From contig QQUF01000055.1 in the NCBI GenBank assembly GCA_008501735.1, positions 1-24,073 on the forward strand: a stretch of 24,073 nucleotides of DNA, read 5' to 3'. Shown piece by piece: positions 6,175 to 13,816 of the stretch (within the stretch, counting starts at the first letter, position 1; each line of letters starts with the position of its first letter). The notes below the pieces were generated by a model. It ran no database searches and was not told where the DNA came from. It worked only from the letters and a program-made list of their open reading frames with translations. Origin of the DNA: Calditrichota bacterium. GTDB lineage: Bacteria > CLD3. Position numbers and translations under genes: made by a program.

Positions 6175-6202
6175 AAGAGCCTGAAAAAATTTTCAGGCTC
6201 TT
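6175..6202 (+). terminator. Stem-loop after the AIM24-family gene, terminator-like without a U tail
   Basis: A 12-bp perfect stem (AAGAGCCTGAAA with TTTCAGGCTCTT) closes on a four-base loop, 18 bases after the stop codon. The following bases (GGTCAGATTGGG) lack a U tract, so it may be an RNA 3'-end stabiliser or a factor-assisted terminator rather than a classic intrinsic one. Confidence 0.5.
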
Positions 6203-6331
6203 GGTCAGATTGGGAGGAAATCCAAACTAATCAAAACTCGCTTTCATAAACGCTACACATTCCTCAAAAGTTCCCAAAAAATATCAAAAAAAATATTTTA
6301 TTTCAAAACACCGCTTAAGTAATTGTTTTTT

Positions 6332-7243: not shown

Positions 7244-8947
7244 ATGGATATCGAAAGTAAAATCTTTTATCAAATTTTAAACAATTTACCTGGAATTATA
7301 ATTGTTGCAACTGAAGAAAAAAAAATAATTTTTATTAATAATGATGGTGAAAAATATTTCAAATGTAAGTTGGAAAAAATCCAAAACAAAAGTTGCCAAA
7401 TAATTATTAATAAAGAATTTCACGAAACTTTTTGTCTTTTTGAAGAAGTCTCTGAAAATTCAGAAGTTCAATACAAATTTAATGTGAATTTAGCTGGTGA
7501 AGCATTTTCTGTTACAGCTTTTAAGGTTGCAACACCTGAAGGAACTTTGATTGTTCACAATTTTAGATTTGTGAATGAAATCGTTTCAAAAATTAGAAAA
7601 ATCGAAAATGAGAGAGATAAATATCATCTTCAATTTGATAATTTTACTAAAATTTTTGATAAACTTAAAGAAGCCTTTTTGTTAGTCAATTCAGAAAATA
7701 AAGTTATTTTGATGAATGAGTTTGCACAAACGACAGTCGGGATTTCTAAAAGCCAAGTTTTAAATTATGAATTTTCAAATTTCCTGAAACTACTTAAGAT
7801 TAAAAATGACAATAAATTGATTAAGTCTTTAAGTAAAAAAGAGGAACTGTCAAATTACAGTGCATTTTTGGTAGGATTAGAAAATGAGGACAGAAAAATT
7901 ATTCTTAATACTTTCAAACTTTCTAATGAAGAGAACTCTTTCGATTATTTAATTAATATTCGAGACCTTAAAAGAATTGAAGGCGATTTGCGACTAAAGT
8001 CTGAGGGTGAATTGATTCCGGGATTTATTGGTAAATCAAAAGCAATTCAGCAAATTTCGCAAATGGTTCAGATGGTTAAAAATGGCGATACAACAATTTT
8101 GATTCAAGGTGAATCAGGAACAGGAAAGGAAGTAATTTCTCACGGAATTCACGAAATGGGAGAAAGAAGAGACAAGCCTTTTGTTGCAGTAAATTGTGCG
8201 GCGATTCCTGAACATCTAATAGAATCTGAACTCTTTGGACACGAAAAAGGAGCTTTTACAGGAGCTACAGCCACTAAAATTGGAAAATTTGAACTTGCTT
8301 CCGAAGGCACACTTTTCCTTGACGAAATTGGAGAAATGCCTCTTCAACTTCAAACAAAGTTATTACGAGTTTTGCAGGAAAGGAGTTTTGAGCGAGTCGG
8401 AAGTAACAAGCAAATTCAGACTAATACAAGAGTTATTGCTGCCACAAATAAAAACTTAGCAAGTGAGGTTGAAAAAGGTAATTTTAGGAGAGATTTATTT
8501 TTTAGACTAAATGTAATTCCAATAAAATTACCACCTTTACGAGACAGAAAAGAGGATATTGAACTTTTGATTAAAACTTTTATACCAAAACTTTCAGCAA
8601 AATACAATAAAAGAATTCTTGGTGTAGAAAAAAAATCACTTCAATTTTTATTAGAATATCCTTGGCTTGGAAATGTTAGAGAATTGATGAATGTTTTGGA
8701 ATATGGAATTATCTGTTGTCAATCAACAGAGTTAGAACTTCCTGACTTTGAAAATATTTTGAACCTAAAATCCACTAAAAATGAACCTAACAGTGAGAAA
8801 AACGAAAAGCTAACTTATTCAGATTTGGAGCGAAATAAGATTTTAAAAACTTTAGAAAAAGTTAACGGCTCGTTAAATGATGCCGCTGAAATTTTGGAAA
8901 TGCACAGAACAACTCTTTGGAGGAAAATGAAAAAATATGGAATTTAA
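7244..8947 (+). CDS. PAS-containing sigma-54-dependent transcriptional activator (bacterial enhancer-binding protein)
   Basis: Activator that uses ATP to remodel sigma-54 RNA polymerase at -24/-12 promoters. 567 residues. Residues about 1-110 and 135-245 look like two PAS-type sensory modules (for example PGIIIVATEEKKIIFIN and EAFLLVNSENKVILMN), joined by a charged helical linker; no phospho-receiver domain is seen. The AAA+ core follows: Walker A GESGTGKE (289-296), the sigma-54 contact loop GAFTGA (336-341), Walker B LFLDEI (357-362), and the RDLFFRLNV and PPLRDRKEDI segments. A Fis-type helix-turn-helix ends the protein (about 525-567, with LNDAAEILEMHRTTLWRKM). All motifs are intact. Its stop codon lies one base from the next gene's preferred ATG, so it probably shares a transcript with the phosphatase and kinases. 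The signal sensed is unknown. No convincing sigma-54 promoter was found in the window. Confidence 0.95.
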   Translation: MDIESKIFYQILNNLPGIIIVATEEKKIIFINNDGEKYFKCKLEKIQNKSCQIIINKEFHETFCLFEEVSENSEVQYKFNVNLAGEAFSVTAFKVATPEGTLIVHNFRFVNEIVSKIRKIENERDKYHLQFDNFTKIFDKLKEAFLLVNSENKVILMNEFAQTTVGISKSQVLNYEFSNFLKLLKIKNDNKLIKSLSKKEELSNYSAFLVGLENEDRKIILNTFKLSNEENSFDYLINIRDLKRIEGDLRLKSEGELIPGFIGKSKAIQQISQMVQMVKNGDTTILIQGESGTGKEVISHGIHEMGERRDKPFVAVNCAAIPEHLIESELFGHEKGAFTGATATKIGKFELASEGTLFLDEIGEMPLQLQTKLLRVLQERSFERVGSNKQIQTNTRVIAATNKNLASEVEKGNFRRDLFFRLNVIPIKLPPLRDRKEDIELLIKTFIPKLSAKYNKRILGVEKKSLQFLLEYPWLGNVRELMNVLEYGIICCQSTELELPDFENILNLKSTKNEPNSEKNEKLTYSDLERNKILKTLEKVNGSLNDAAEILEMHRTTLWRKMKKYGI

Positions 8948-8948
8948 A

Positions 8949-9419
8949 ATGAAAATTCTTTTCGTCTGTTATGGAAATATTTGTCGTTCTCCGTCAGCAG
9001 AAGCAGTTATGAAAAAATTAGTAAAAAATGAAAAATTGAGTGATAAAATTTACTGTGATTCAGCAGGAATTAATGGTTACCACGAAGGGCAAAATGCTGA
9101 TTCACGAATGAGAGAATACGCTTCAAAACGTGGCTTAAATCTGACAAGCATTTCGAGGCAAATTAATCCGAAAATTGATCTCGAAAAATTCGATTACATC
9201 GTTGGAATGGATTACGAAAATATGAATGATTTGACTCATCTTGATTTTGATGGGAAATACAAAAATAAAATTATCAAAATGACTGATTTTTGCACAAAAA
9301 TTAATGCAAGAGATGTTCCCGATCCTTATTACGGAGGTGGTAAAGGTTTTGAAATTGTTCTTGATATTTTAGAAGATGCTTGTGAAGGTTTTTTACAAAA
9401 ATTGAAAAAAGAAATTTAG
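8949..9419 (+). CDS. Low-molecular-weight protein tyrosine phosphatase family protein
   Basis: Cytoplasmic cysteine phosphatase of the LMW-PTP fold. With ATG 8949 the protein has 156 residues, the family norm, and starts MKILFVC; an in-frame ATG at 8937 would add four residues and overlap the upstream gene. Seen: P-loop CYGNICRS with nucleophile Cys7, Arg13 and Ser14, and the general acid Asp125 in DVPDPYYGG (122-130). All catalytic residues are present. In many bacteria LMW-PTPs act on phosphotyrosine (often beside tyrosine kinases and polysaccharide genes), but here the next gene encodes a fructosamine-3-kinase family protein. A human LMW-PTP has been shown to dephosphorylate ribulosamine 5-phosphates on proteins, which supplies substrate for this kinase family, so a deglycation role is the context-based inference. 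No tyrosine kinase is visible nearby. Confidence 0.93.
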   Translation: MKILFVCYGNICRSPSAEAVMKKLVKNEKLSDKIYCDSAGINGYHEGQNADSRMREYASKRGLNLTSISRQINPKIDLEKFDYIVGMDYENMNDLTHLDFDGKYKNKIIKMTDFCTKINARDVPDPYYGGGKGFEIVLDILEDACEGFLQKLKKEI

Positions 9420-9427
9420 CTCTAAAA

Positions 9428-10285
9428 GTGGAAGTTTTGCAAAAAATTGAAGAAGTCTTAAACGAAAAAGTCAAAAGTAAGACTAATATTTTTGGCGGTT
9501 GCATTGCAAATTCACAAAAGATAGAAACTGAGTCAGGTCGTAGTTTTTTTGTGAAGACTTTAGAAAACAAACCCAAGATTTTTCAAAATGAAGCAAGTGG
9601 ATTGAAAGAATTGCAAAAAGCTAAGGCAATCAGAATTCCAAAAGTGATTTTTCAGGATGAAGCTTTTCTTTTGCTTGAGTTTGTTGAAGAGGGAAGAAAA
9701 GACAATGAGTTTTTTCGTAATTTTGGTCAGCAATTTGCAAATCTACATAAATTTGAGAATGAGAATTTTGGCTTTTTTGAGGATAATTACATTGGTGCAA
9801 ATCCACAAAAAAATATTCCGAATAGATCTGAAGCAAACAATTGGACGGAATTCTATTTTAACAAACGTTTGCTTTTCCAATTCAAACTTTGTGAAAACAA
9901 TGGCTTTTCTACACTGGAAATGAGGAAATTGTTTTTACAATTGGAGAGCAAAATCGAAAAAATTTTGGAAGGAAGTGAAAATGTTCCTTCTTTGCTTCAC
10001 GGAGACTTGTGGAGTGGTAATTTTCTTGTTGATGAAAATTCAAATCCTTGTTTAATCGACCCTGCGGTTTACTACGGAAATCGGGAAGCAGATTTGGCGA
10101 TGACAAAATTATTCGGTGGATTTGACCAAAATTTCTATCAAACTTACAATGAAACTTTTCCACTTGCAGAAGGTTATAAATATCGAGAAAATATTTACAA
10201 CCTTTACCACATCTTAAATCATTTAAATTTGTTTGGTAAAAGTTATTACTTACAAGTGATTTCACTAATGAAAAGTTACGTTTAA
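9428..10285 (+). CDS. Fructosamine-3-kinase family protein (probable ketosamine 3-kinase, protein deglycation)
   Basis: Predicted to phosphorylate the 3-hydroxyl of ketosamines formed by non-enzymatic glycation, making them unstable so the amine is freed. Bacterial members mostly prefer ribulosamines and erythrulosamines. 285 residues, the family length. Seen: glycine-rich loop GGCIANSQ (23-30) with Cys25, matching the redox-sensitive P-loop cysteine of eukaryotic FN3Ks; likely ATP-site Lys43; catalytic LLHGDLWSGN (189-198, Asp193, Asn198); metal-binding IDPAVYYGNREADLAMT (210-226, Asp211); and the FGGF..FY element. Start is GTG at 9428, eight bases after the phosphatase stop; no ATG is available. 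The stop codon directly abuts the next gene's ATG. It should not be mistaken for an aminoglycoside-resistance kinase, which shares only the fold. Confidence 0.93.
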   Translation: MEVLQKIEEVLNEKVKSKTNIFGGCIANSQKIETESGRSFFVKTLENKPKIFQNEASGLKELQKAKAIRIPKVIFQDEAFLLLEFVEEGRKDNEFFRNFGQQFANLHKFENENFGFFEDNYIGANPQKNIPNRSEANNWTEFYFNKRLLFQFKLCENNGFSTLEMRKLFLQLESKIEKILEGSENVPSLLHGDLWSGNFLVDENSNPCLIDPAVYYGNREADLAMTKLFGGFDQNFYQTYNETFPLAEGYKYRENIYNLYHILNHLNLFGKSYYLQVISLMKSYV

Positions 10286-11224
10286 ATGATTCCTTCCACT
10301 AAAAATACTTTTGGTTTTGCTCAAGAAGCAATGCAATTTTGGGACTTCAAAAATCCAAAACTTACACATCTTGGCGATTCAGGAAATTCTGTTTACTTAG
10401 TTCAAACCGAAAATCAAAAATTTATTTTACGGCTGACTTCAACTGCTTACAGAACTAAACCCGAAAATCAAGCAGAATTGGAATTTTTACTTCATTTAAA
10501 CAAAAATGGTGTTAAAGTTAATTTTCCAATTTTATCAAAAAATACAAATTTAGTGGAGGAAATCACTTCAAGCAATGATTTGACTTGTTCGGTTTTTAAT
10601 TTTGTTGAAGGTGAATTTGTCAAACCAAGTTCTGAACTTTGGAACAAGGAAATGTTTTTGAATTGGGGCAAAACTCTTGGGCAAATTCATAAATTTGCGA
10701 TGACTTTTGAACCGAAAAGCAATTGTGACCGATGGCATTGGAATGAGGAAGTCCTGATTCGTGATGCTAAAATTTTAATTCCAAAAAGTGATTCTAAATC
10801 TTTTGAAGAGTTAGAATTTTTAATTGAAAGAATAGGCTTGTTACCAAAAATAAAAGAAAATTATGGATTGGTTCACGCAGATTTTGCACCACAGAATTTT
10901 GCTTACGGTAAAAATGGCTTGTTTGCATTTGATTTTGGGAATTGTTGTTACCATTGGTTTGTTTCAGATTTAGCAATTTCTTTGTCTGTTTTAAGGAGGC
11001 AGAAAGAAAAGGAAAAATACCAAGAGTGGATTTTTGAAGGGTACGAGAAAGTAAAACCCTTACCAAATTCTGAATTACAAAATTTGGACTTATTCTTTAG
11101 GCTTAGACTTCTCTACGTTTACCTTTCTCGGCTTTACAAATTTGGAATGAATCCAACGAAAGAAGAAAAGAAAATCTTAGTTGAATTGAAGAGTAGAGTG
11201 CATCAAAAATTATCTTTAATGTGA
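10286..11224 (+). CDS. APH/choline kinase-fold phosphotransferase, substrate unknown
   Basis: Small-molecule kinase of the phosphotransferase enzyme family (PF01636 type), 312 residues. Seen: N-lobe glycine-rich segment LGDSGNSVYLV (29-39), strand FILRL (47-51) with Arg where many kinases have Lys (common in this family), the catalytic loop LVHADFAPQN (195-204; Asp199, Asn204), and the metal-binding FAFDFGNCCYHW (213-224; Asp216) followed by VSDLA. Catalytic residues look intact. The YHWF..DLA tail resembles the group of APH-like proteins that includes homoserine-kinase-like and stress kinases rather than drug-resistance enzymes. The ATG follows the stop codon of the fructosamine kinase gene without a gap, so translation is likely coupled, suggesting a related substrate such as a sugar or amine. 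It ends 12 bases from the convergent aminotransferase gene. Substrate is not recognisable. Confidence 0.88.
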   Translation: MIPSTKNTFGFAQEAMQFWDFKNPKLTHLGDSGNSVYLVQTENQKFILRLTSTAYRTKPENQAELEFLLHLNKNGVKVNFPILSKNTNLVEEITSSNDLTCSVFNFVEGEFVKPSSELWNKEMFLNWGKTLGQIHKFAMTFEPKSNCDRWHWNEEVLIRDAKILIPKSDSKSFEELEFLIERIGLLPKIKENYGLVHADFAPQNFAYGKNGLFAFDFGNCCYHWFVSDLAISLSVLRRQKEKEKYQEWIFEGYEKVKPLPNSELQNLDLFFRLRLLYVYLSRLYKFGMNPTKEEKKILVELKSRVHQKLSLM

Positions 11225-11236
11225 GTTTAAGAATAA

Positions 11237-12394
11237 TTAATGAGAGAATTTGTAAAGTTTTTCTCCTGCTTCTTCAAGAGTTTCATTGCCTTTACAGAAG
11301 CAGAACCTTAGCAAATTTTGAGATGAATCTTTGTTTGTATAAAACACTGAAACAGGAATCGAAGCTACTTTTGCTTGACGCGTTAATCTTTGTGCAAAAG
11401 TAAAGTCGTCTTCATCGGAAAAATTTGAGTAGTCGGCAAGAATGAAATAAGTTCCTTGTGGCTGAATTGGTTTGAAACCTGTATTTTGTAAAATCTCAAA
11501 AAGTAAATTCCTTTTTTCCAAGTAAGTTTCTTGGAACTCTTCGTAAAATTCATCGCCGACTTTTAAAGCATCTGACATTGCCACCTGAAAAGGTGTAGAG
11601 GTTGCAAAAGTAACGAATTGATGACAAGCTCGGAGTCTGCGAGTGAGTTCTTCACAAGCAAGTGAAAATCCGATTTTCCAACCTGTGTAGCTGAATGTTT
11701 TTCCAGTTGAAGAAATTGTAACAGTTCTGTCTCGCATTCCTTCGATTGTTGCAAGCGGAATGTGCTTAGCTTCGTCAAAAATCAAATGTTCGTAAACCTC
11801 GTCGCAAATTGCAATTACATTCCATTTCTTGCAAAGTTCTGCAATCTTTTTCAATTCTTCCACTGTAAACACTTTTCCAGTGGGATTTTGTGGAGTGTTG
11901 AGAACTAAAAGTTTTGTCTTTTCGTTAAAAAGTGAAGATAATTTTTCAAAATCAACTTTGTAACTTGGTAACTCAATTGAAACAGTTTTTACAGTTCCTC
12001 CAGAAAGTCGAATTACTGGAGCGTACGAGTCATAAACTGGGTCAAAAACAATGCATTCGTCTCCTTGTTCCACTAAAGTTGTAAAAGTTACAAAGAGTGC
12101 TTCTGTTGCTCCACTATAAATAGTTACTTCATTCTTAGGGTCGAATTTTGTTCGGTAGAATTTTTCAAAATGCTCCTTTACAGATTCTCGCATCATTGGT
12201 AAACCAGGCGAATTTGCGTACTGATTAAATTTATTTTGCATTGCCCAAACGGCTTTTTTGCGAATAAAATCGGGTCCATCAAAATCTGGAAAACCTTGCG
12301 AAAGATTTACTGCATTTTCATTAATTGCAAGTTCTGACATTGTTGTAAAAATTGAGGTTTCGGTTTTTGCAAATTTATTACCAAGTTTAAGCAT
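11237..12394 (-). CDS. PLP-dependent class I/II aminotransferase (methionine/kynurenine aminotransferase-like)
   Basis: Fold-type I aminotransferase, 385 residues. Seen: N-terminal NLSQGFPDFDGP (30-41), QYANSPGLPMMRESV (58-72), the NPTG PLP/substrate motif (170-173), CDEVYEHL with Asp198 and Tyr201, and the Schiff-base lysine Lys232 in SSTGKTFSYTGWK, plus a C-terminal arginine in LLRFCFCKG for the carboxylate. The NLSQGFPDF opening and the GKTFSYTGWKIG block match the YbdL methionine aminotransferase / kynurenine aminotransferase (glutamine transaminase K) group better than aspartate aminotransferases, suggesting methionine salvage or aromatic/sulfur 2-oxoacid transamination. AAAGGA lies six bases upstream of the ATG (complement of 12401-12406). 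It is transcribed alone, convergent with the kinase cluster and divergent from the HD gene. Exact substrate is uncertain. Confidence 0.92.
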   Translation of the reverse strand: MLKLGNKFAKTETSIFTTMSELAINENAVNLSQGFPDFDGPDFIRKKAVWAMQNKFNQYANSPGLPMMRESVKEHFEKFYRTKFDPKNEVTIYSGATEALFVTFTTLVEQGDECIVFDPVYDSYAPVIRLSGGTVKTVSIELPSYKVDFEKLSSLFNEKTKLLVLNTPQNPTGKVFTVEELKKIAELCKKWNVIAICDEVYEHLIFDEAKHIPLATIEGMRDRTVTISSTGKTFSYTGWKIGFSLACEELTRRLRACHQFVTFATSTPFQVAMSDALKVGDEFYEEFQETYLEKRNLLFEILQNTGFKPIQPQGTYFILADYSNFSDEDDFTFAQRLTRQAKVASIPVSVFYTNKDSSQNLLRFCFCKGNETLEEAGEKLYKFSH

Positions 12395-13729: not shown

Positions 13730-13816
13730 GCGGGAGTGGTGGAATTGGTAGACACGTCAGACTTAGGATCTGGTGCAATTACAACTTGCGTGGGAGTTCA
13801 AGTCTCCCCTTTCGCA
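13730..13816 (+). tRNA. tRNA-Leu, anticodon TAG
   Basis: A class II tRNA of 87 bases. Acceptor stem GCGGGAG pairs with CTTTCGC (two G-T pairs) and the discriminator base is A. The D-arm contains GGTAGACAC; the anticodon arm is CAGA-CTTAGGA-TCTG, giving anticodon TAG. A long variable arm (TGCAATTACAACTTGCG) follows, then the T-arm with GTTCAAGTC. It reads CUN leucine codons, mainly CUA/CUG depending on modification. The CCA end is not encoded (TAA follows the discriminator), so it must be added by a nucleotidyltransferase. Confidence 0.97.

Follow-up and report, generated by a model that had tools for sequence, protein, structure and literature searches.

The four closely packed genes at positions 7,244 to 11,224 of the 24,073-nucleotide stretch of Calditrichota DNA analysed here (the window) are probably three unrelated modules placed end to end: a known LMW-PTP and FN3K pair, a respiratory activator that acts in trans, and a kinase resembling AmiN/YerI. 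The LMW-PTP and FN3K genes are a predicted deglycation pair, a reading that is well supported by their conserved adjacency and co-divergence. The activator gene and the fourth gene are lineage-specific neighbours packed around this known pair. A functional link among the pair, the activator and the fourth kinase is not indicated, and a dedicated, regulated deglycation system is not evident.

Layout and surroundings of the cluster

The first-pass annotation of this DNA had described four packed genes separated by gaps of one, eight and zero bases and had assigned each to a family. The gaps, read from the sequence, are as described, and the open reading frames, Pfam matches and motifs agree with the families named (Table 1). 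The LMW-PTP gene has an alternative ATG start at 8937, from which it would overlap the activator gene. Because the promoter and terminator scans returned about as many hits as shuffled sequences did (20 against 18.3 for promoters; 3 against 2.5 for terminators), they are neutral on the question of a single transcript. Co-transcription of the cluster from one promoter is plausible; for the activator and the pair it is likely, given the one-base gap between the activator and LMW-PTP genes, and read-through may give some regulatory coupling.

A hairpin, GAGCCTGAAAAAATTTTCAGGCTC then TTGGTCAGATTGGGAGGAAATCCAAACTAATCAAAACTC, precedes the cluster. In G001, a genome from another genus of the same family as the window genome (G000), a nearly identical copy of the 3' part lies upstream of the orthologous radical-SAM gene; the stem there has different letters and keeps its pairing. 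No Rfam family reached threshold for this element, which is possibly a conserved RNA element.

Table 1. Features of the window considered in the text
Feature	Position	Strand	Basis and remarks
Hairpin, possible RNA element	6175-6240	+	
Radical-SAM gene	ends 111 bases before the activator gene (7244)		
Sigma-54 enhancer-binding activator (PAS)	7244-8947	+	ORF, 567 aa; Pfam
LMW-PTP of FN3K-linked type	8949-9419	+	ORF, 156 aa from ATG 8949; Pfam
FN3K / ribulosamine 3-kinase family kinase	9428-10285	+	ORF, 285 aa, GTG start; Pfam
APH-fold small-molecule kinase	10286-11224	+	ORF, 312 aa; Pfam
Aminotransferase	11237-12394	-	converges on the 3' side of the cluster
tRNA gene	13730-13816	+	Rfam tRNA, 52 bits; conserved in G001

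The LMW-PTP/FN3K pair

The LMW-PTP matches Pfam LMWPc at 131 bits and retains the catalytic motifs CYGNICRS and DVPDPYYGG. The FN3K matches Pfam Fructosamin_kin (PF03881) at 275 bits, against a curated cut-off of 22.4, and its catalytic and metal motifs are intact (HGDLWSGN for HGDLWxGN, and DPAVYYG for DPAxYYG), as is a P-loop reading GGCI. Many of the nearest relatives share the P-loop cysteine, while some have serine or aspartate instead (GGSI, GGDI); in plant FN3K, a redox-switch cysteine has been described at this position.

We fetched 102 FN3K loci, 80 from named genomes and 22 from a sample of 386 genomes, and determined their neighbours by tblastn; 99 had enough upstream sequence for the LMW-PTP to be assessed. 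Of these 99, 31 have a co-oriented LMW-PTP immediately before FN3K, a fraction that is not an unbiased estimate because the 80 loci were the top scorers of a larger set. For the 11 nearest loci, with FN3K identities to the window protein of 49% or more, the count is 8. The nearest FN3K relatives belong to Bacteroidota, Ignavibacteriota, Chlorobiota, Planctomycetota, Bdellovibrionales and SAR324; a scan of viral contigs found no relatives of FN3K.

The two proteins have also diverged together, as their distances correlate with a Mantel r of 0.64 (n = 32 pairs) that none of 2000 permutations reached. The window LMW-PTP is 57% identical to FN3K-linked PTPs, as against 41% to the second LMW-PTP of its own genome, and a PTP tree groups it with the FN3K-linked proteins with moderate support (91/93). 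FN3K is present in one of the nine genomes of the phylum in the collection searched, which points to gain by transfer, loss elsewhere being possible. The pair most likely travels as a unit and has been horizontally transferred, although the transfer itself is something that we infer. In the sampled FN3K loci (the best-scoring 80 and the 22), neither the four-gene nor a three-gene order is conserved. The same four-gene order was what the first-pass annotation had proposed to look for in Ignavibacteriota and Bacteroidota genomes. Beside the pair, neither the activator nor the fourth kinase occurs in any of the relatives sampled.

In deglycation by such a pair, ribulosamine 5-phosphate is dephosphorylated and then phosphorylated at position 3, after which release is spontaneous. 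The pair is not new, a bacterial deglycation pair of an LMW-PTP and an FN3K homolog, with ribulosamine/erythrulosamine 3-kinases, having reportedly been described since Gemayel et al. in 2007. That work (FEBS J 274:4360) is listed among the references of PMC13223202 and PMC5270733. In the window genome, ribose 5-phosphate or erythrose 4-phosphate on amines would give ribulosamine or erythrulosamine phosphates, from which the LMW-PTP is predicted to take off the 5-phosphate (or 4-phosphate); the FN3K would then phosphorylate C3, destabilising the adduct so that the amine is freed. The substrates given here are predictions from sequence. Like a Gemayel-type pair, the window genes belong to the same two families, are adjacent and co-oriented with the PTP first, and have all the catalytic motifs; unlike such a pair, they are preceded by an activator and followed by an unrelated kinase. 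The earlier proposal of a deglycation system holds for the pair, on the strength of its adjacency and co-divergence, but not for the activator and the fourth kinase.

The activator and its predicted respiratory target

The activator combines an N-terminal sensory region (PAS), an AAA+ module with a GAFTGA loop and intact Walker motifs, and a Fis-type HTH (Pfam Sigma54_activat at 245 bits, with Fis HTH and PAS). Beyond the window genome, it is most similar to a full-length ortholog in G001 (70% identity), and the sensory region taken alone was found in two of the 386 genomes, G000 and G001. Cysteines 41, 51 and 64 of the sensory region (7244-7990) are kept in the ortholog and would fit a redox signal perceived through thiols or a metal. 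The AlphaFold model of this region is poor (mean pLDDT 46), a phmmer search of it against solved structures gave no match, and a scan of viral contigs found no relatives of the activator.

In G001, the activator is the last gene of an operon that encodes, in order, a NarJ/TorD-type chaperone, a molybdoenzyme, an FeS subunit and an NrfD-type membrane subunit. The best solved match of the molybdoenzyme is Thermus 2vpw (400 bits), deposited as thiosulfate reductase; among the family models it comes nearest to PhsA, with a score under the cut-off. The orthologous operon of the window genome lies at G000:C24 (50, 77, 78 and 70% identity for the chaperone, molybdoenzyme, FeS and NrfD products) and has no activator behind it. 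Thus, whereas the G001 ortholog sits in a Psr/Phs-type molybdoenzyme operon, the activator of the window genome is detached from its counterpart. Relative to each other, the two genomes have scrambled gene orders, with the window neighbours on separate G001 contigs, and the position of the activator in G001 therefore need not be ancestral.

The regions upstream of the operon share a layout in the two genomes, TTGCAA-N4-TTGCAA followed by a sigma-54-like promoter. When aligned, they read TTGCAACTTCTTGCAA and TTGCAACCTGTTGCAA and, about 60 bases later, TTGGTACAAGTTTTGAATTAATC and TTGGTACAGCTTTTGGATTAATC, a sigma-54-like -24/-12 element. A third case of this layout stands before a cytochrome c and DUF3373 operon that adjoins the G001 activator. 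Among 232 loci, the promoter pattern was not found elsewhere, except in copies of these upstream regions, and G000 has a single exact pair with a 4-base spacer, the one at the C24 operon. TTGCAA pairs with spacers of 3 to 7 bases number 17 in G000 against 1 in the reversed control, and 31 against 3 in G001; this wider set may perhaps comprise enhancers of other sigma-54 activators. Most pairs genome-wide have 6-base spacers (for example, G000:C24:167297, C17:43216 and G001:C181:11324), and one spacer, ACACAG, is identical in G000 and G001. The window genome (4.1 Mb) is rich in activators, with 38 sigma-54-activator-type matches, any of which could use TTGCAA sites.

The window itself contains no exact TTGCAA pair and no regulon-type promoter, its two-mismatch matches being at chance level, and a scan of it with the generic sigma-54 consensus likewise stayed at chance level. 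Because the predicted sites lie upstream of the respiratory operons and are missing from the window, the activator most likely acts in trans. It would be an enhancer-binding protein specific to this family and directed mainly at the polysulfide/thiosulfate-reductase-type operon at G000:C24, which it would reach through a predicted code consisting of a TTGCAA-N4-TTGCAA enhancer and a TTGGTACA-N3-TTTG-N2-TTAATC promoter. Judged from these sequence comparisons, control of a sulfur-respiration-type operon elsewhere in the genome is most likely its role, this operon being the target that we infer.

The activator had been put forward as dedicated to deglycation. That claim did not hold: the ortholog stands in a respiratory operon of a genome with no FN3K and no fourth kinase, whose closest LMW-PTP is just 35% identical, and no activator adjoins the pair in the sampled relatives, the one case near an FN3K among the fetched loci (the best-scoring 80 and the 22) being 3 kb off on the other strand. 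One could still envision that an autoregulated or respiration-driven activator gene carries transcription onward into the pair and the fourth gene, such that deglycation would follow the redox or respiratory state with no glycation sensor involved. The single base between the activator and LMW-PTP genes and the probable place of the activator in a respiratory regulon would fit this scenario, but the enhancer/promoter element of the regulon was not found upstream of 7244 and the arrangement is seen in one genome only. We think that read-through of this kind is unlikely.

The fourth kinase and the question of a regulated operon

The fourth gene product matches Pfam APH at 82 bits, with the motifs HADFAPQN and FDFGN intact. 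Among solved structures, it is closest to two amicoumacin kinases (114 and 98 bits; 6sui at E 6e-32), and its similarity to AmiN/YerI (PDB 6sui, 6sum) is distant, although the alignment, at 114 bits, covers almost the full length. NCBIfam gave weak homoserine-kinase-like matches, below cut-off. We place this APH-fold kinase close to the amicoumacin-kinase (AmiN/YerI) group; it would have a small-molecule substrate of its own. Its candidacy as an FN3K paralog was rejected, given that it matches amicoumacin and homoserine-type kinases best.

Of the nine genomes of the phylum, the eight besides G000 lack the fourth gene, as do all of the 102 fetched FN3K loci (the best-scoring 80 and the 22). Conversely, in 15 loci of its homologs that we examined, no PTP or FN3K lies within about 1.5 kb and no activator stands beside the homolog. 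The earlier idea of a second, coupled kinase loses its footing on these counts. The zero-base gap to FN3K and the APH fold might suggest that the kinase works together with the pair, phosphorylating either ketosamines, as FN3K does, or the product that is set free; considering its best matches, which are to amicoumacin kinase and, more weakly, to homoserine-type kinases rather than FN3K, its absence from the 102 FN3K loci and the lack of PTP or FN3K near its homologs in the 15 loci, we find such a partnership quite improbable.

Salmonella offers a precedent for a regulated operon, in that GfrR is a sigma-54 activator of the gfrABCDEF glucoselysine/fructoselysine operon (PMC4987338); there, a sigma-54 activator governs glycated-amine genes, as had been proposed for the window. 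Unlike the window, however, gfr encodes a PTS and deglycases, with no FN3K or LMW-PTP, and GfrR is LevR-like with PTS-regulation domains, whereas the window activator has PAS. For want of these domains, the window activator was rejected as a GfrR homolog. Despite this precedent and the tight one-strand packing, it is very improbable that the activator PAS senses a glycation-related signal and, with sigma-54, induces the LMW-PTP, FN3K and second kinase as one operon, since the window has no sigma-54 promoter above chance and no enhancer pair upstream, the sampled FN3K loci show no conserved three- or four-gene order, and G001 has the activator ortholog without FN3K and the fourth kinase. It is likewise highly doubtful that, in this lineage, gene order has come to link a respiratory, possibly thiol/redox-sensing, activator with a captured deglycation pair and a second kinase, tying deglycation to the respiratory state.

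The first-pass annotation had staked its proposal partly on conserved adjacency in related genomes; such adjacency is absent for the activator and the fourth kinase and present for the LMW-PTP and FN3K genes. The pair is widespread, being present at about one-third of the sampled FN3K loci, and its two genes seem to move together as a unit. The extra genes of the window should not be taken as new parts of a deglycation pathway. The more useful lead is the family-specific PAS activator together with its predicted enhancer/promoter code and the sulfur-respiration-type operon, a regulon that would belong to a phylum with nine genomes in the collection searched.
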